From the NCBI RefSeq assembly GCF_003609835.1, contig NZ_AP017898.1, forward strand, positions 3,162,001 through 3,226,000: a stretch of 64,000 nucleotides of DNA, in the 5' to 3' direction. The position numbers were made by a program, and so were the translations under genes. The stretch is from Sphingopyxis sp. FD7 (GTDB lineage: Bacteria > Pseudomonadota > Alphaproteobacteria > Sphingomonadales > Sphingomonadaceae). Below, piece after piece: positions 4,436 to 18,508 of the stretch; position 1 is the first letter of the stretch; each line of letters opens with the position of its first letter. The notes under the pieces were generated by a model. It was not told the DNA's origin and did no database searches. It saw only the letters and a program-made list of their open reading frames with translations.

Positions 4436-5395
4436 CTAGATACCCTCGCCCGACAATCGCTGGCAGATCATGTCGAGCTGGTCGAGCGACGCGAATTTCA
4501 GCGTCAGCGCACCCTTGCCGCCGCCCGCATATTGGATCGCCACCCCGATACCGAGCAGTTCGGACAGATGGCGCTCGACCGCGACGATGTCGGGGTCGCG
4601 CCCGCCGGGGCCGTCCATGCTCTTATATTCGAGCGGCGCCTTGCGCCCGCCGCCGCGCCCCGCGCGCACCAGCGCCTCGACCGCGCGCACCGACAAGCCT
4701 TCCTTGACCACCTTGCGCGCGATCGCTTCGGCATCGTCGGCGCCGATCAGCGCGCGCGCGTGGCCCATCGCGAGCGACCCGTCGCCGACGAGCGCCTGCA
4801 CGGCGTCGGGCAGGTCGAGCAGGCGCATCAGATTTGCGACATGGCTGCGCGACTTGCCGACCAGTTTCGCGAGTGCTTCCTGATTATGCCCGAAATCCTC
4901 GATCAGGCGGCGATAGGCGCTCGCCTCCTCGATCGCGTTCAGATCCTGCCGCTGGATATTCTCGACGAGCGCGATCTCATAGGTCGCGGCATCGTTCAGC
5001 TCGCGCACGAGCGCCGGAATCTGGTGCAGCCCCGCGCGCTGCGCCGCACGCCAGCGGCGCTCACCCGCAACCAGCTGAAAACCATCGCCATCGGGCGACC
5101 GGCGCACGATGATCGGTTGCAACAAGCCGCGCAGGCCAATCGAATCGGCGAGTTCGGCGATCGCCGCCTCGTCGAAATGGCGGCGCGGCTGACCGGGCAG
5201 CGGGCGGATCGCGCCGACGGGCACATGCTGCACGGAATCGCCCGCCACCGGCGCGGCGCGCGCCGCGCCGCCCGGCGTTGCCAGAACCGGCGCCTCGACC
5301 GCGACGTCGCCGAACAGCGCGTTCAGCCCGCGCCCCAGGCCGGACGGGCGTTTGCGCGGCGAGGATACGCTATTTTCTTCTTTTTTATCAGTCAT
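4436..5395 (-). CDS. parB: Chromosome-partitioning protein ParB
   Basis: 319 residues. ParB binds parS sites and spreads as a CTP-dependent clamp, recruiting ParA and condensin for origin segregation. After a basic N-terminus (GLGRGLNALFG, the usual ParA-interacting segment) comes the ParB/Spo0J nuclease-like domain with the conserved GERRWRAAQRAGL (about residue 110-125), then ENIQRQDLNAIEEA and the helix-turn-helix region around VGKSRSHVANLMRLLDLP. The C-terminal dimerisation segment ends the protein. Its ATG follows the parA stop directly (TAAATG), so the two are co-translated. Three perfect parS palindromes lie 0.9-3.7 kb upstream in the same cluster. Confidence 0.97.
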   Translation of the reverse strand: MTDKKEENSVSSPRKRPSGLGRGLNALFGDVAVEAPVLATPGGAARAAPVAGDSVQHVPVGAIRPLPGQPRRHFDEAAIAELADSIGLRGLLQPIIVRRSPDGDGFQLVAGERRWRAAQRAGLHQIPALVRELNDAATYEIALVENIQRQDLNAIEEASAYRRLIEDFGHNQEALAKLVGKSRSHVANLMRLLDLPDAVQALVGDGSLAMGHARALIGADDAEAIARKVVKEGLSVRAVEALVRAGRGGGRKAPLEYKSMDGPGGRDPDIVAVERHLSELLGIGVAIQYAGGGKGALTLKFASLDQLDMICQRLSGEGI

Positions 5396-6178
5396 TTATG
5401 CTGCCTTGCGAATCTCGGGAAGCCGGTCGATCAGCTCGCGCGCGAGCGCAATATAGGCCGCCGACCCGGCGCAGCGATGGTCATAGATGAGCGCGGGGAG
5501 CCCGTGGCTCGGCGCTTCGGACAAGCGAACGTTGCGCGGGATCACCGTGTCGAACACCACCGGCCCCAGCACCTCGCGCACATCGTCGGACACCTGGTCG
5601 GTCAGCCGGTTGCGCCGGTCGAACATGGTGAGCGCGACCCCGAGGATCGACAATTTCTGGTTGAAACGCTCGCGCACGCGCTCGACCGTCGTGAGCAGCT
5701 GACTCAATCCCTCGAGCGCAAAAAATTCGCATTGCAGCGGCACGAGCAGCGATTCGGCGGCGATCAGCGCATTGAGCGTCAGCATCCCCAGTGACGGCGG
5801 GCAATCGATCAGGCAAATGTCCCATTGCCCCGCTTCGGCGCCCGACAGGGCTTTTTGCAGCCGGTGGAGGCGGTCCTGAAACTCGATCAGCTCGATCTCG
5901 GCGCCCGACAGATCGACCGTCGCGCTGACGATGTCGAGCCGCGGTACGGCGGTCGCGATCGCGCATTCGGCCACCGTCGCATCCCCGCGCAGCAACTCAT
6001 AGCTTGAGCATTCGCGTTGCGCCTGCTTGATCCCCAGCCCCGTCGAGGCATTGCCCTGCGGATCGAGGTCGATGATCAGCGTGCGCCAGCCCGTCGCCGC
6101 GAGTGCGGTCGCCAGATTGATCGCTGTCGTTGTCTTGCCGACCCCACCCTTCTGGTTCGCCACGGCAATGCGGATCAT
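5396..6178 (-). CDS. parA: Chromosome-partitioning ATPase ParA
   Basis: 260 residues. Starts MIRIAVANQKGGVGKTT, the deviant Walker A motif of ParA/Soj ATPases, with the Walker A' and B regions at LIIDLDPQGNAS and CLIDCPPSLGML. ParA dimerises on ATP, binds DNA non-specifically and moves ParB-parS complexes. ATG 6178 is supported by a GAGGGA ribosome site and by the motif beginning at residue 5; upstream in-frame codons are the tail of rsmG in another frame. Its start overlaps the rsmG stop by four bases (ATGA). It forms the rsmG-parA-parB unit standard in origin-proximal clusters. Confidence 0.97.
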   Translation of the reverse strand: MIRIAVANQKGGVGKTTTAINLATALAATGWRTLIIDLDPQGNASTGLGIKQAQRECSSYELLRGDATVAECAIATAVPRLDIVSATVDLSGAEIELIEFQDRLHRLQKALSGAEAGQWDICLIDCPPSLGMLTLNALIAAESLLVPLQCEFFALEGLSQLLTTVERVRERFNQKLSILGVALTMFDRRNRLTDQVSDDVREVLGPVVFDTVIPRNVRLSEAPSHGLPALIYDHRCAGSAAYIALARELIDRLPEIRKAA

Positions 6179-6834
6179 GCTTTCCCTCGCTTTTTCGGCG
6201 CGATACGCCCCGTTCCGACCAATATGCCGCTTTCGGCATCGGTACGGCTCTGTTCCACGTGGAACATTCTCTGCCACGCCTCGGGCAGCGATGCCAGTTC
6301 CTTAACCCCGTTTCGCCCTTTTGGCAGCAGCCAGCGCGTCGATTCGGTGGAAAAACGCGCGGATAAGTCGATGAGCCGGTCGAGCGGCGCAAAGGCGCGC
6401 GCGCTGATCGTCGCCGCGGGGCGCGTTTCGATGCGCTCAAGCGGCGCTTCGGCGACCTCCACATGGCCAAGACCCAGATCGGCCACGACCGCGCGCAGGA
6501 AATCGCAGCGGCGGCGGCGCGATTCGATGAGCAGCATCGGCCGCGCGCTCAGAATCGCGACGACCAGCCCCGGCAATCCTGGCCCGCTCCCCAGGTCGAC
6601 CCAAAGCCCCTTGCCTCCGGTATCGAGTCCGAGCAACTGCGCGCTGTCGGCAATATGCCGCACCCAAATCGTCGGGATCGTGGACGCGGCGATCAGGTTC
6701 TGCCGGTCATTCTCGGCCACCAGCATCGCCGCGAACCGCTCGAGCTGCGTCCATTGTTCGGTCGAAGGCGCGAACGCCTGCGTCAGCCAGCCGCGCGCAG
6801 CGTGTTCATCCTTCAATAGTTCGGCAGCGCTCAC
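6175..6834 (-). CDS. rsmG: 16S rRNA (guanine-N7) methyltransferase RsmG (GidB)
   Basis: 219 residues. Methylates N7 of G527 in 16S rRNA using S-adenosylmethionine. The motif LWVDLGSGPGLPGLVVAI (about residues 83-100) is the SAM-binding loop. NLIAASTIPTIWVRHIADS before it is the family signature. A parS palindrome (6251-6266) is embedded near the 3' end and is read as MFHVEQ, so the coding sequence accommodates the partition site. It overlaps the parA start by four bases. Confidence 0.95.
   Translation of the reverse strand: MSAAELLKDEHAARGWLTQAFAPSTEQWTQLERFAAMLVAENDRQNLIAASTIPTIWVRHIADSAQLLGLDTGGKGLWVDLGSGPGLPGLVVAILSARPMLLIESRRRRCDFLRAVVADLGLGHVEVAEAPLERIETRPAATISARAFAPLDRLIDLSARFSTESTRWLLPKGRNGVKELASLPEAWQRMFHVEQSRTDAESGILVGTGRIAPKKRGKA
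6251..6266. promoter_or_regulatory. parS: parS site 1 (inside rsmG)
   Basis: TGTTCCACGTGGAACA, a perfect 16-bp palindrome that differs from the canonical TGTTTCACGTGAAACA only by the symmetric C/G pair. It lies in the 3' part of rsmG, just upstream of parA. ParB loading site. Confidence 0.93.
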
Positions 6835-7137
6835 GTCGTTCCTTCACCAGCCGCGCGATGCGGGATTATCATCCGTCTTCGCGCCTTTGCGCCTTTGCGT
6901 GAGATTTTGAAAGCCTCACGCAAAGACGCAAAGGCGCGAAGAGAGGGGCCAGCTCTTCCGGCGCTGCAGAATCTTCTCACACAAAGATGTCGCGCCGACC
7001 CTCATACCACGGCTCATGATCCGCTCACCGCCGGTTTTTGCTCGAGTCGAGATTTCGCGGTACGGGAGCCTCCCGCCAGAACCAACGCGGCCGTCTTCGT
7101 GTCCTTGTGTGAGATTCCCAAACCTGCCTTCGCAGAT
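6835..7137. other. 303-bp intergenic region between mnmG and rsmG
   Basis: No gene was found. It holds the strong inverted repeat at 6876-6942 and, further right around 7085-7115, a degenerate related piece (GTCTTCGTGTCCTTGTGTGA). It separates the mnmG stop from the rsmG start, so the two genes may be transcribed separately. Confidence 0.6.
6876..6942. repeat. 28-bp inverted repeat, CTTCGCGCCTTTGCG family
   Basis: Left arm 6876-6903 and right arm 6915-6942 match as inverted copies at 27 of 28 positions, around an 11-base centre. The unit contains tandem CTTTGCG words. Degenerate relatives with ACACAAAGACG occur near 9073 and in the repeat at 26227-26365. It may serve as a transcript 3'-end structure for mnmG, or be a dispersed REP element. 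Confidence 0.75.
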
Positions 7138-9009
7138 TCAAGCCGCGCGCCGCCGGCTATGCACCATGATCGCGGTGAGCGCCGCGGGCGTCACCCCGTC
7201 GATTCGCGACGCCTGCCCCAGCGTTTCGGGACGTGCCTTGGTCAGCCGTTCGACCATCTCGCGCGACAGCCCGCCGATCGCGCCATAGTCGAGCGCGGGG
7301 TCGAGACTGATCGCCTCGTTCGCCGCGAGCGCGCGGAGTTCGGCTTCGTGGCGCGCGATATAGGGCGCATAATGTGCGTCTTCGACGACTTCGGCCAGGA
7401 TCGTCCGATCGATCGATTCGATCGCGGGCGCCAGAATCATCAACTGCTCGACCGTCACGTCGCGAAAGCGCAACAGGTCGATTCGCCGCCGCGCGATGCC
7501 GTCGCCGGGCAGCGGCAATCCGATCGCCGCATAATCGGCGGTCGCCACCGGCGCTTCGAGCAGTGCCTCGGCGCGCGCCCGCTCGGCCATCCGCGCATCG
7601 AACAGCGCCGCGGTCGCGGGCCGCACCAGCCCCAGCGCCTTCCCCTTCGGGGTCAGCCGCGTCGCCGCATTGTCGGCGCGCAGCCGCAAGCGATATTCGG
7701 CGCGCGCGGTGAGCATCCGATACGGCTCGGTCACCCCCTGCAACACCAGGTCGTCGACCATCACCCCGATATAGGATTCGGACCGTTCAAGGATCAACGG
7801 GTCGCGGCCCTGAACGGCGAGCGCGGCATTGGCGCCCGCGACCAGCCCCTGCGCCGCGGCTTCCTCATATCCGGTCGTGCCGTTGATCTGCCCCGCGCAC
7901 CACAGCCCGGCGATAGCGCGCACCTGCAAGGTCCGGTCGAGCGCACGCGGATCGATATGGTCATATTCGACCGCATAGCCCGGAACGACCATTTCGACCG
8001 TCTCAAGCCCCTCCATCGTGCGCAGCATCGCGAGCTGCACATCGGCGGGGAGCGAGGTCGAAATGCCGTTCGGATAGACAAGATGCGTGTCGAGCCCTTC
8101 CGGTTCGAGGAACACCTGATGCCCGTCGCGGTCGGCGAAGCGATGGATCTTGTCCTCGATCGACGGGCAGTAGCGCGGTCCCGCCGCGCCGATCGCGCCG
8201 GTAAACAGCGGCGAGCGGTGCAGATTATTGGCGATGATCCGATGCGATTCGGCGTTGGTGCGCGTGATCGCGCAGAAAATCTGCGGCACGCTCCGCCCAT
8301 TGTTCCACGTGGAACAGGTCCAGGTCGCGCCCTCAGCGCTATCCGACGGCTGTTCGGCAAGCCGCGCCCAATCGATCGTCCGGCCGTCGAGTCGCGGCGG
8401 GGTTCCCGTCTTGAGCCTAGCCATCGGCAGATCGGCGGCGCGAAGCTGCGCGGCGAGCCGGTGTGCCCCCGCTTCGCCGATACGCCCGCCCGCCATCCGC
8501 TCCTCGCCGCGAAACAGTCGCCCGCCGAGAAAGGTGCCCGTCGCGAGCACGACGGCCGACGCTTTCAGCCCCGACCCGTCGCCGAGTTCGAGACCTTCGA
8601 CCCGTGCGCCGTCGGCCGAAAGCGTCAGCGCGGCGGCTTCGCCTGCGACGACGGTAATGCGATCTTCCGCCGCGAGCAAAGTCTGGATCGCGTCGCGATA
8701 CAGCTTGCGGTCGGCCTGGATGCGCGGCCCCTGCACCGCGGCGCCCTTCGACGCATTGAGCATCCGGTAATGGATCGCCGCGGCGTCGGCGGCGCGCGCC
8801 ATCCAGCCGTCGAGCGCATCGACCTCGCGCATCAGATGGCCCTTGCCCAGCCCGCCGATCGCCGGGTTGCACGACATCGTCCCGATCAGCGCCGGGTCGA
8901 AACTGACCAGCGCAACCCGCGCACCCAGCCGCGCCGCGGCCGCGGCGGCCTCGGTCCCGGCATGTCCACCGCCGACGACGATGACATCGAAAATTGCGCT
9001 GCTGGTCAT
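7138..9009 (-). CDS. mnmG: tRNA uridine-5-carboxymethylaminomethyl synthesis protein MnmG (GidA)
   Basis: About 623 residues. With MnmE it installs the cmnm5 group on wobble U34 of certain tRNAs, using FAD and NADH. The N-terminus carries [18 protein letters not shown] (FAD-binding), then [14 protein letters not shown], and later [19 protein letters not shown] and [13 protein letters not shown], all family signatures. Start at ATG 9009 places the FAD motif at the usual distance; ATG 9024 would add five residues. A parS site sits inside (8301-8316), and the local peptide [13 protein letters not shown] departs from the usual MnmG sequence there. Adjacent to mnmE, its functional partner. Confidence 0.96.
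8301..8316. promoter_or_regulatory. parS: parS site 2 (inside mnmG)
   Basis: A perfect copy of TGTTCCACGTGGAACA within the mnmG coding sequence, read in frame as part of CSTWN. ParB loading site. Confidence 0.93.
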
Positions 9010-9111
9010 GATCGTGCGGCGCATAGCCGAAAGCGGTCGCGAAATCCATCGCGCGAAGCGTCTTCAAAATCTTACACAAAGACGGGCTTACGCCCACTCC
9101 GCCAAAGTCGC

Positions 9112-9127
9112 TGTTCCACGTGGAACA
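9112..9127. promoter_or_regulatory. parS: parS site 3 (mnmE-mnmG junction)
   Basis: A perfect copy of TGTTCCACGTGGAACA, directly abutting the mnmE stop codon (9128-9130) in the gap before mnmG. It is the parS copy closest to the proposed oriC, about 8.3 kb away. Confidence 0.93.
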
Positions 9128-10456
9128 TCATTTTCCGATGCAGAATCGCCCAAACAGCGTGTCGAGCATATCCTCGACCCCGGCGCGCCCCGTGATGCGG
9201 TCGAGCGAAGTCGCGGCGAGCCGGAGGCGCTCGGCGAGCAGGATCAGGTCGCTGGCCTCGCGCGACTCGGGATCGATCGCAAGCCATTGCTTTGCGTCGG
9301 CAAGTGCGGCGCGCTGGCGTTGGCGCAGTGCCGCTTCGCCCTCGCGCGGCAACAGCGTCCGTGCCATTTCGACGATCATGTGATGCAGCCTGTCCATCCC
9401 TTCGCCTGTCGCCGCCGACAGGATAAGGTCGCAGCGCGCAGCCTCGGCTTCGGCCGCCGCGTCGCCGCGCCAGCGGTCGGCCTGCGCCGCGATCAGGATC
9501 GTGCGCGGGTGGTGAGGCGCTTCCTTCGGCGGCCCGAGCCACAGCAATATATCGGCCGCCTCGACCGCCGCCTTCGCGCGATCGATCCCGATCGCCTCGA
9601 TAGCGTCGGCCTCACCGCGCAGTCCTGCGGTATCCGAAAAGCGCATCGCGATCCCATCCAGCGCCAGCGGCGTTTCGATCACGTCGCGCGTCGTCCCCGC
9701 GACCGGCGACACGATCGCCAGCTCCCTTTTTGCCAAGACATTGATAAGAGTAGATTTACCGGCATTTGGCGGTCCTGCGATCACCACCGACAGCCCCTCC
9801 GATATCACCTCGGCCGCCGGCCGCGCCAGCCACTTCCCCAGCTCCTCCGCCAGCGCTGCCATCCCCCCCCGCACCCGCTGCGCCACAACTTCGCCAACTT
9901 CGACGTCGTCTTCGTCGGCGAAATTGAGCTCGGCCTCGGCGCCCGCCATCAATCCGAGCAGCCGCTCCTGCCAGTCCGCCACCGCGCGCGATACATGCCC
10001 GCTCGCATGGCCCAGCGCCTGCACCCGCTGGCTTTCGGTTTCGGCCGCGAGCAGGTCAGCCAGTCCTTCGGCCTCGGCAAGGTCGATCCGTCCATTCTCG
10101 AACGCCCGCCGCGTAAACTCGCCCGGCGCAGCGCGCCTTAATCCCGGCATGGCCGCCAGCACCGCCTCCACCGCCGCGACCACCGCGCGCCCGCCGTGCA
10201 GGTGCAGTTCGGCGAGGTCTTCGCCGGTCGCGGTCGCCGGCCCCGGAAACCAGAGGATCAGCGCATGATCGAGCGCCCCGCCGTCGGGGTCCGTCAACCT
10301 GGCGAGTGAAGCTTGTCGGGGCACCGGCAGTCGCCCTGCCAACGCCTGCAACGCCTTGGCGGCATCGACCCCGCTGATCCGCACGACCGCGATCGCGGCG
10401 GGCGGCATCCCGCTCGACAGCGCGAAAATCGTATCGCTTGCTGGCGCCTGGTTCAG
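9128..10456 (-). CDS. mnmE: tRNA modification GTPase MnmE (TrmE), probable CTG start
   Basis: 442 residues if started at CTG 10456. MnmE partners MnmG in wobble-uridine modification. The G domain has GPPNAGKSTLINVL (Walker A) and SPVAGTTRD (switch), and the protein ends in FCIGK, the catalytic C-terminal Cys motif. The first ATG (10408) would start at PPAAIAVVRISG and lose the family's DTIFALSSG segment, which is present upstream in frame with no ATG, GTG or TTG. The only plausible start is CTG, overlapping the upstream stop as CTGA, with AAGGGG eight bases before it. The start is inferred; the identity is certain. Confidence 0.93.
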   Translation of the reverse strand: MNQAPASDTIFALSSGMPPAAIAVVRISGVDAAKALQALAGRLPVPRQASLARLTDPDGGALDHALILWFPGPATATGEDLAELHLHGGRAVVAAVEAVLAAMPGLRRAAPGEFTRRAFENGRIDLAEAEGLADLLAAETESQRVQALGHASGHVSRAVADWQERLLGLMAGAEAELNFADEDDVEVGEVVAQRVRGGMAALAEELGKWLARPAAEVISEGLSVVIAGPPNAGKSTLINVLAKRELAIVSPVAGTTRDVIETPLALDGIAMRFSDTAGLRGEADAIEAIGIDRAKAAVEAADILLWLGPPKEAPHHPRTILIAAQADRWRGDAAAEAEAARCDLILSAATGEGMDRLHHMIVEMARTLLPREGEAALRQRQRAALADAKQWLAIDPESREASDLILLAERLRLAATSLDRITGRAGVEDMLDTLFGRFCIGK

Positions 10457-16259: not shown

Positions 16260-17288
16260 TTATCCGCCGCGGACGCGCTTGATGAGATGTTCGACATGGG
16301 CGATCGGGGTGTCGGGAACGATCCCATGGCCCAGGTTGAAGATATGGGGGCGCGACGGAAAAGCCGCAAGGATATGGTCGATCGCGCTGTCGAGCGCGGC
16401 GCCGCCCGCGACGAGCGCGAGCGGATCGAGATTGCCCTGCACCGGCAGATGTGGCGGCAAGGCGGCATCGGCCCAGGCGGGATCGACCGTCTCGTCGAGC
16501 CCGATCGCGTCGACACGCGTTTCGTCGGCATAGGCGCGAAGCTTGCCCCCGGCCCCCTTGGGAAAGCCGATGATCGGTGTATCGGGGTGCAGCGCCTTCA
16601 ATCGCCGGACGATTTCGGCGTTGGGCGCGATCACCCATTGTTCATATTGGGCGGGGCTGAGGCTGCCCGCCCAGCTGTCGAAGAGCTGCACGGCGTCAAC
16701 GCCATGTTCGATCTGGCCCGCCAGATAGACGACCGTAAGCTCGACGATCGCGTCGATGATCGTCTGGAAAGCCGTGGGATCGGCGAACGCCATCCGCCGT
16801 GCCGCCGCCTGGTCCTTCGACCCCTGTCCCGCGACCATATAGGTGGCGACGGTCCACGGGCTTCCCGCAAAGCCGAGAAAGGTCGTTTCGCCCGGCAGCG
16901 ATCCTGCGACGCGCGCGACCGTCGCATAGACCGGGTCGAGCCGCTGCGGCGCGGCTTCGAGTGACGTCAAGGCGCTGTCGACGAGCGGAGGCGCGAGCCG
17001 CGGCCCCTCACCCGCCTCGAACCACAGATGCTGGCCGAGCGCGTGCGGAATGACAAGAATGTCGGAGAAGAGGATCGCGCCGTCGAACCCGAAACGCCGG
17101 ATCGGCTGCAGCGTCACGTCCGCGGCGGCATCGGGGTCGTAGCAAAGCTCGAGAAATCCGCCCTTGGTTTCGCGAAGGGCACGATATTCGGGCAGATAAC
17201 GCCCGGCCTGGCGCATCAGCCAGAGCGGCGGGCGCTCCTGCCGCACTCCGCGCAGCGTCGCGAGCAGCTTCTTCGGTGACGCCTTCAC
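16260..17288 (-). CDS. hemE: Uroporphyrinogen decarboxylase HemE
   Basis: 342 residues. Decarboxylates uroporphyrinogen III to coproporphyrinogen III. PPLWLMRQAGRYLPEYRALR is the N-terminal signature, and GFAGSPWTVATYMV and IGFPKGAGGKL follow. GTG 17288 is chosen: it lies 7-8 nt after AGAGGGG and gives the family's usual N-terminus (KASPKKLLATLRG). The longer open frame would run into the AT-rich origin region. hemE next to oriC is a conserved alphaproteobacterial arrangement. Confidence 0.95.
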   Translation of the reverse strand: MKASPKKLLATLRGVRQERPPLWLMRQAGRYLPEYRALRETKGGFLELCYDPDAAADVTLQPIRRFGFDGAILFSDILVIPHALGQHLWFEAGEGPRLAPPLVDSALTSLEAAPQRLDPVYATVARVAGSLPGETTFLGFAGSPWTVATYMVAGQGSKDQAAARRMAFADPTAFQTIIDAIVELTVVYLAGQIEHGVDAVQLFDSWAGSLSPAQYEQWVIAPNAEIVRRLKALHPDTPIIGFPKGAGGKLRAYADETRVDAIGLDETVDPAWADAALPPHLPVQGNLDPLALVAGGAALDSAIDHILAAFPSRPHIFNLGHGIVPDTPIAHVEHLIKRVRGG

Positions 17289-17447
17289 GCGGCCCCTCTT
17301 TCTCTCTTCATATATAATCTTGAATAAAATTGTTGTGGTTTGTTGGTCGGCGGACAAGGGCGGCTTTAGGCCGGGACGCCCGTTTTGCCAACAGCTTGAC
17401 TCCCGGTTCACGGGCATCACTCAGAGAGTCGCGGCTCGCTTTGCCCC

Positions 17448-17456
17448 TTATTCACA
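17448..17456 (+). promoter_or_regulatory. DnaA box TTATTCACA
   Basis: Matches the TTATNCACA consensus; first of four in the proposed oriC. Confidence 0.75.
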
Positions 17457-17459
17457 GCA

Positions 17460-17468
17460 TGTGGATAA
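17460..17468 (-). promoter_or_regulatory. DnaA box TTATCCACA (reverse)
   Basis: Read TGTGGATAA on the plus strand; a perfect strong-box sequence, three bases from the previous box and in opposite orientation. Confidence 0.8.
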
Positions 17469-17479
17469 GATTCATCCCA

Positions 17480-17488
17480 TGTGGATAA
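17480..17488 (-). promoter_or_regulatory. DnaA box TTATCCACA (reverse)
   Basis: Second perfect TGTGGATAA, spaced 20 bp start-to-start from the previous reverse box and followed by the same G. Confidence 0.8.
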
Positions 17489-17560
17489 GCGATGGAGCGG
17501 AATCGGTGCGCCTGGGGATCAATTGCGCGTGCCGAAATCATCCCGGCGCTTTTGCCAAAC

Positions 17561-17569
17561 TTATCCACA
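17561..17569 (+). promoter_or_regulatory. DnaA box TTATCCACA
   Basis: Perfect box on the plus strand, at the RP001-side of the proposed oriC. Confidence 0.8.
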
Positions 17570-17695
17570 GCCCAAACCGTCGCCCCGCGAAGACGGGGAC
17601 CGCTGGAGAGATTGAGCAAGGCCGAGAACACCCCTGGCTTCGCCGGGACGACGGTTGCTATTGCCTTTTTCCCCCCTGCGCCCGAAAGCGGGGCG

Positions 17696-18508
17696 ATGAG
17701 CCGCCTTCACCTGCACCTCATATCCGATTCCACCGGCGAAACGCTCGAAAATATCGCCAAGGCGGCGATCGCGCAGTTCGACGATGTCGAGGTGGTGCGC
17801 CATTTCTGGCCGATGGTGCGATCCGAATCGCATCTCGACCGCATCATGGCCGAAGTGCAGGCGAGCCCCGGCATGATCCTCTTCACGCTCGTCAACGGCG
17901 AGCTGCGCAGCAGCCTCGAGCGCCGCGCGGGAATGCTCAACCTGCCCACCGTGGCCGCGCTCGACGCGGTAACCGACGCCTTGTCGCGGATGCTGGGACA
18001 GGAAGCCAAGGCGCGGCCCGGACGCCAGCATGTTCTCGACGCCGCCTATTTTGCGCGCGTCGAGGCGATCCAGTTCACCGTCGCGCACGACGACGGCATC
18101 GGCTGGGAAAATTGGGAACAGGCCGACATCGTCCTTGCCGGTGTATCGCGCACCTCGAAGACCCCGACAAGCATCTACCTCGCCAACCGCGGGTTCAAGA
18201 CCGCGAATATCCCGATCGTCCCCGAATCGCCGCCGCCGAGCGCGCTGTTCAACCTGAAGCGCCCGATGGTCGTCGGGCTCACGACGGGACTCGACCGGCT
18301 GGTTCAGGTGCGGCGCAACCGGCTGCTCTCGCTGAACCAGACGCCCGAGACGAGCTATGTCGACGATGAGCGCGTCAAGGCCGAACTGGCCTTTGCGCGG
18401 CGCATGTTCGCCGACAACGGCTGGCCGGTGATCGACGTCACGCGCCGCTCGATCGAGGAAACCGCGGCGGCGGTGATCAAGCTGGTCGAGGACCGCGCCA
18501 GCGCATGA
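17696..18508 (+). CDS. PEP synthase / PPDK regulatory kinase-phosphorylase (RP001, DUF299)
   Basis: 270 residues. The family reversibly phosphorylates PEP synthase or pyruvate phosphate dikinase using ADP. MSRLHLHLISDSTGETLENI is the N-terminal signature, and GVSRTSKTPTSIYLANRG holds the P-loop-like motif. YVDDERVKAELAFARRMF and the final DVTRRSIEETAAAVI are also conserved. ATG 17696 is chosen because it begins the conserved domain; the longer open frame upstream runs through the origin. It is the RP001 gene that flanks oriC in alphaproteobacteria and starts the rightward ppsR-maf-aroE-coaE-dnaQ run, overlapping maf by four bases. Confidence 0.92.
   Translation: MSRLHLHLISDSTGETLENIAKAAIAQFDDVEVVRHFWPMVRSESHLDRIMAEVQASPGMILFTLVNGELRSSLERRAGMLNLPTVAALDAVTDALSRMLGQEAKARPGRQHVLDAAYFARVEAIQFTVAHDDGIGWENWEQADIVLAGVSRTSKTPTSIYLANRGFKTANIPIVPESPPPSALFNLKRPMVVGLTTGLDRLVQVRRNRLLSLNQTPETSYVDDERVKAELAFARRMFADNGWPVIDVTRRSIEETAAAVIKLVEDRASA

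Follow-up and report, generated by a model that had tools for sequence, protein, structure and literature searches.

A predicted chromosomal replication origin between hemE and a ppsR-type gene in Sphingopyxis sp. FD7

Results

The hemE-ppsR gap as the predicted origin

The 407-bp gap between the divergently transcribed genes hemE and ppsR of Sphingopyxis sp. FD7 is almost certainly the replication origin (oriC) of the main Sphingopyxis chromosome. This prediction, made from sequence, sustains the oriC reading that the initial annotation had given to this hemE/RP001-type gap, and it draws on a DnaA-box cluster that is unique in the genome, nearby parS sites, a switch in strand-biased octamers, and a dif-like site on the opposite side of the chromosome. 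The stretch of DNA that we analyzed (“the window”, 64,000 nucleotides) corresponds to C1:3162001-3226000, where C1 is a contig of 3,695,614 bases; positions given without a contig name are those of the window.

The gap (17289-17695) is bordered on the left by hemE, encoding uroporphyrinogen decarboxylase on the minus strand (16260..17288; PF01208, E 6.9e-114), and on the right by a gene for a ppsR-type kinase/pyrophosphorylase (Kinase-PPPase) on the plus strand (17696..18508; PF03618, RP001/COG1806 type). The hemE start at 17288 is our own reading, and the listed open reading frame continues to 17420. Both genes point outward, as originally described, and the gap has the same neighbors, hemE and the COG1806/RP001 gene, as the hemE-type oriC of alphaproteobacteria. 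Across 31 genomes (FD7, 18 of the genus and 12 of the order), hemE and the PF03618 gene are divergent neighbors without exception, the hemE match being split over two contigs in one genome (G017). Among the matches listed, the named relatives closest to the PF03618 protein belong to Sphingopyxis, that of Sphingopyxis sp. LK2115 being 100% identical over residues 1-269, and the best 80 include at least 49 loci that are 85% or more identical, 44 of them named Sphingopyxis and five carrying broader names.

Four exact TTATNCACA boxes span 122 bp of the gap, and their number, spacing and orientation (two forward, two reverse) are as first reported. They are located at 17448..17456 (plus strand, TTATTCACA), 17460..17468 and 17480..17488 (both minus strand, TTATCCACA), and 17561..17569 (plus strand, TTATCCACA). 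The window contains no further exact box, and shuffled sequences contained a mean of 0.22 and a maximum of two, with four being reached in 0 of 100. Genome-wide (3.94 Mb) there are 18 exact boxes, with none on contig C2, and because a control pattern, the same box read backwards, occurs 20 times, the genome total amounts to background. The remarkable feature is their clustering: any other pair of boxes is at least 49 kb apart, and the cluster in the gap is the sole one in the genome. The four-box spacing is kept in all 50 Sphingopyxis-type loci (our own plus L105-L153); the worst box has at most one mismatch in 41 of these loci, two in seven and three in two, and all four boxes are exact in four of the 50.

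Beside hemE lies an AT-rich stretch (17305..17334), which we propose as the duplex unwinding element. This stretch, too, had been pointed out from the sequence, and it is real: it is 83% AT, versus 42% across the gap, and the gap in turn is richer in AT than sampled stretches of the chromosome (~31-38%). The stretch is uncommon, not unique: counting the stretch itself, the 1.335 Mb of chromosome that we sampled has 14 separate places with a 30-mer that is equally or more AT-rich. In an alignment of relatives, from which one misplaced row (L039) was left out, the AT-richness is kept and the sequence is variable. The gap also contains GANTC sites, as claimed, but their number is four and not three, versus 0.65 expected (Poisson P 0.004): GACTC at 17398..17402, GAGTC at 17426..17430, GATTC at 17469..17473, and GAATC at 17500..17504. 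The first two, with the second 28 bp after the first, are inside a conserved element that is described below. The proteins encoded by the genome include a GcrA and a RAMA-domain protein, the latter being, we infer, CcrM-type.

T/G triplets at the proposed unwinding end

Beside the AT-rich stretch, on the plus strand, is a tract of T/G triplets, TTGTTGTGGTTTGTTGG (17330..17346), which we propose as candidate deviant DnaA-trios, and adjoining it on the minus strand is a degenerate DnaA-box-like site with three mismatches, TTGTCCGCC (17349..17357). The arrangement (AT-rich stretch, triplets, spacer, reverse box) has the same order and direction as the basal unwinding system of B. subtilis (PMC8287927, PMC10721633), but differs from it in that the middle base is mostly G or T and not A, the box carries three mismatches, and DnaA has Leu for Asn187. 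The search rule for the basal unwinding system is NAN triplets, and its authors suspect that there are deviant trios lacking the middle adenine (PMC8287927). Our tract, TTG TTG TGG T TTG TTG G, contains zero middle-adenine triplets, where the system asks for at least three; the system also calls for a DnaA box no more than ~16 bp from the trios, and the box-like site of FD7 is the degenerate one described above. T. maritima cannot do without its three TAG repeats (PMC10316083), and in B. subtilis, where Asn187 contacts the adenine, a middle G or T slows strand separation while C is tolerated (PMC10721633).

Two readings of the tract are evenly balanced. Our comparison of loci predicts that the triplets would act as DnaA-trios without the middle adenine; with equal probability, the tract may be a single-strand DnaA site like that of E. 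coli (TTGT/TTATT type), or a mere AT-rich edge. The composition of the triplets favors the second reading, as the middle bases of 155 triplets in the genus are 91 G, 55 T, 8 A and 1 C, and are thus mostly those with which strands separate more slowly in B. subtilis (PMC10721633). So does the degenerate state of the adjoining box, since a reverse box that is exact or one mismatch off lies within 45 bp past the AT peak in only one of the 50 genus loci (0.6% of shuffles), and so does the modest excess of the triplets themselves: at least three in-phase T.G triplets are present in 48 of the 50 genus loci versus 36% of shuffles (outside the genus, in 23 of 43 loci, G023 included, versus 25% of shuffles). 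Yet the tract is kept across the genus, next to an AT-rich stretch that varies, and relatives outside the genus show, in the same place, repeats of TAG and a reverse box of good quality, both of which argue for trios. The sequences found there are TAGTAGTAG (L031), TAGTAGTGGTTGTTG (L053), TGGTGGTGGTGGTGG (L056) and TTGTTGTTG (L155); certain relatives within the order, L031 and L053, carry the TAG repeats, and in L055 TTGTAGTTGTTGTTG is followed by an exact reverse box. Within the same 45 bp, 15 of the 43 outside loci contain a reverse box that has one mismatch or none (3.3% of shuffles), versus a forward box of that quality in 0 of 43.

When aligned to chain 8btg_A, which we take to be the DnaA of B. 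subtilis, FD7 DnaA has Leu, Val, Met and Lys at positions 187, 190, 193 and 202, respectively, as counted by hand on the alignment. The presumed identity of 8btg agrees with the residue numbers in PMC10721633. Not one of the 31 DnaA proteins that we read has Asn at 187; they instead have Leu (19 proteins: 18 of the 19 from the genus, and G029, which has TGG repeats), Tyr (five), Phe (five), Met (one, G016) or His (one). Middle-adenine triplets accompany Phe or Tyr in four genomes (G022, G028, G021 and G023), and another with Tyr (G026) has one TAG; counter to this, Phe occurs with TTG in three (G019, G024 and G030), and three more genomes (G025, G027 and G020) are ambiguous. A simple rule connecting residue 187 with the middle base of the triplets, drawn by eye over related genomes, is only suggestive.

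A conserved element with a spacer of fixed length

A conserved element, TTTTGCCAACAGCTTGACTC-N23-GAGTCG (17383..17431, plus strand), occupies part of the interval from the AT-rich stretch to the boxes. With up to two mismatches allowed, GCCAACAGCTTGACTC-N23-GAGTCG has a single copy in each of 73 of the 80 genus genomes (the control pattern had no match) and is absent from the other seven, two of which (G014 and G016) have diverged origins. In all 17 element-bearing genomes for which the place of the PF03618 gene is known, the element is just upstream of that gene. The sequence TTTGCCAA is present in 50 of 50 Sphingopyxis-type loci and in 0 of 31 loci outside the genus; in 44 of the 50 a box-like site follows it at a distance of exactly 64 bp, and in these same 44 the distance from GACTC to GAGTC is always 28 bp, although the intervening bases vary. 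A shorter core, ACA[GT]NTTGAC, is present in 49 of the 50 genus loci and in 26 of the 31 outside, and in all 75 core-bearing loci a GANTC site follows 30 or 31 bp past TTGAC.

The element contains, on the minus strand, an IHF-like site, AGTCAAGCTGTTG (17389..17401), that differs from WATCAANNNNTTR by one mismatch and occupies the same place in 49 of the 50 genus loci. The reverse complement of the core has one mismatch to the IHF consensus in every one of the 49 genus loci with the core and two in each of the 26 such loci outside, and our gap contains two one-mismatch IHF-like sites, the background being 0.15 per kb of sampled sequence. Judged by these matches, it is plausible, if not secure, that the element is an IHF site. 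Alternatively, TTGAC-N-GAGTC could be a promoter controlled by GcrA and CcrM, and not a bend site: TTGAC resembles a −35 box, gcrA and the gene for the RAMA-domain (CcrM-type) protein are both present in the genome, and the distance from TTGAC to GANTC is 30 or 31 bp in all 75 core-bearing loci. A −10 box would be located in the N23 segment, however, which varies in sequence and keeps only its length, and we disfavor the promoter reading as rather unlikely.

Chromosome-scale landmarks

The genome contains three exact parS matches (GTTCCACGTGGAAC), and all are in the window, 8-11 kb from the boxes (6252..6265, 8302..8315 and 9113..9126). Three more parS-like places, with one mismatch each, are found at C1:2981984-2981997 (~0.2 Mb from oriC), 180636 and 952581. 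Near the origin, parB, parA, rsmG (GidB), mnmG (GidA) and mnmE are consecutive (4436-10408), and the parS sites fall in the parA/rsmG overlap region, in mnmG, and just beside mnmE. Both parB (4436..5395; HTH_ParB, E 1.4e-33; ParB_N, E 4e-33) and parA (5396..6277; AAA_31, E 7.4e-60; CbiA/ParA, E 2.6e-31) are on the minus strand, and the true start of parA is probably downstream of the first codon of the open reading frame.

Octamers biased to the leading strand, learned from 17 stretches of the right arm and 19 of the left at a distance from the gap, reach their cumulative minimum over 2.945-3.440 Mb in the 3.17-3.18 Mb bin, and the boxes are at 3.179 Mb. The second strongest biased octamer is GGGCAGGG (55 to 14), which we take to fit the KOPS pattern. 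The counts for GGGNAGGG are 20 to 4 in seven stretches between 0 and 1.16 Mb and 7 to 27 in nine stretches between 1.33 and 2.87 Mb. A search with the dif pattern, allowing up to three mismatches, returned a single match at 1,257,075 (three mismatches), with control patterns returning none; this site, which we regard as dif-like, is nearly opposite the boxes, leaving arms of ~1.77 and ~1.92 Mb. The GC skew of a sample comprising 36% of the chromosome turns near 1.26 Mb, almost opposite the boxes and close to the dif-like site.

The minimum of the GC skew, by contrast, had been expected at the gap, and the best two-breakpoint fit to the raw skew puts it near 3.39 Mb. Over 2.945-3.440 Mb, cumulative G-C has a shallow local minimum at 3.18-3.19 Mb and then falls to the 3.39 Mb bin. 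We attribute this shift to a stretch right of the origin, C1:3250001-3420000, where the G+C of the bins is lower (down to 57%) and the G-C sums are negative; the stretch possibly represents islands or an inversion. Raw GC skew was rejected as a sole guide to the origin because it is too noisy, and third-codon-position skew was not used, its best-fit minima being scattered at 343 kb, 533 kb, 3.57 Mb and 3.39 Mb.

The dnaA gene, correctly placed outside the window by the initial annotation, is at the start of C1 (C1:542-1021), ~0.52 Mb from the boxes round the circle, provided that C1 is circular, as its position and the arms suggest. The denser box cluster beside dnaA that would have spoken against the gap is absent. 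Clusters that titrate DnaA occur in other bacteria, and an origin beside dnaA, as in many bacteria, would make the hemE boxes a titrating or regulatory cluster, but we rejected this as extremely improbable, since the location of dnaA at the start of C1 is accompanied by a single exact box just after it (C1:1585) and zero exact parS sites, and the octamer switch, parS, the dif-like site and genus-wide conservation all favor hemE.

DnaA-family ATPase matches with identical scores are repeated on both contigs, three at 25.6 bits (C1:1608185, C1:3420855 and C2:124511) and two at 32.9 bits (C2:50304 and C2:94949). We presume that these are probably IstB-type helper genes of insertion elements.

Discussion

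The predicted origin of FD7 is ordinary in kind, as a hemE-side oriC is already known for the genus, and the N23 element and the triplets are extra details. The rule of a hemE-side origin comes from Caulobacter and Rickettsia (told in PMC1914354), such an origin has been predicted for Novosphingobium sp. PP1Y (PMC4059872), and hemE-side origins with conserved DnaA boxes and an unwinding element have been published for S. granuli TFA and other Sphingopyxis (PMC4741004). Our gap has in common with the latter its place near hemE, the DnaA boxes, the duplex unwinding element and the gene order, and nothing in our analysis contradicts that report. With Cori of Caulobacter crescentus it shares the hemE/COG1806 location, DnaA boxes, an AT-rich stretch and an IHF-like site, but Cori has five CtrA-type sites (PMC1914354) and our gap has none. 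No TTAA-N7-TTAA sequence with at most one mismatch was found in the 450 bp before ppsR, and CtrA control of the FD7 origin was rejected on the lack of a site in the gap; some relatives carry one or two sequences of this type. Text searches, made without the letters of the element, turned up neither the N23 element nor T/G trios in the accessible literature on Sphingopyxis or hemE-side origins and on DnaA-trios, and the supplementary alignment of PMC4741004 may show the element.

In the model that we propose, DnaA would bind the four boxes, and a bend at the IHF-like element, positioned between the boxes and the AT-rich stretch, would bring both together. DnaA would open 17305-17334 and, at the T/G triplets, keep hold of one of the strands; helicase loading would follow, and forks would leave both ways. 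ParB at the three parS sites would then move the copies apart. We further suggest, tentatively and with some doubt, that the trios of Sphingopyxis lost their middle adenine (TGG or TTG for TAG) alongside a change of DnaA Asn187 to Leu, giving a deviant code for strand capture, and that a single-copy bend site with two GANTC sites at fixed spacing may tie opening to the methylation cycle.

Together, these results fix the replication map of the genome, with the origin at 3.179 Mb and dnaA ~0.52 Mb away, in agreement with the rule published for the genus. To that rule they add two testable details, namely triplets in the trio position that lack the middle adenine, paired with a DnaA in which the adenine-contacting Asn is missing, and, on the way from the AT-rich stretch to the boxes, a single-copy element whose spacer keeps its length but not its sequence.
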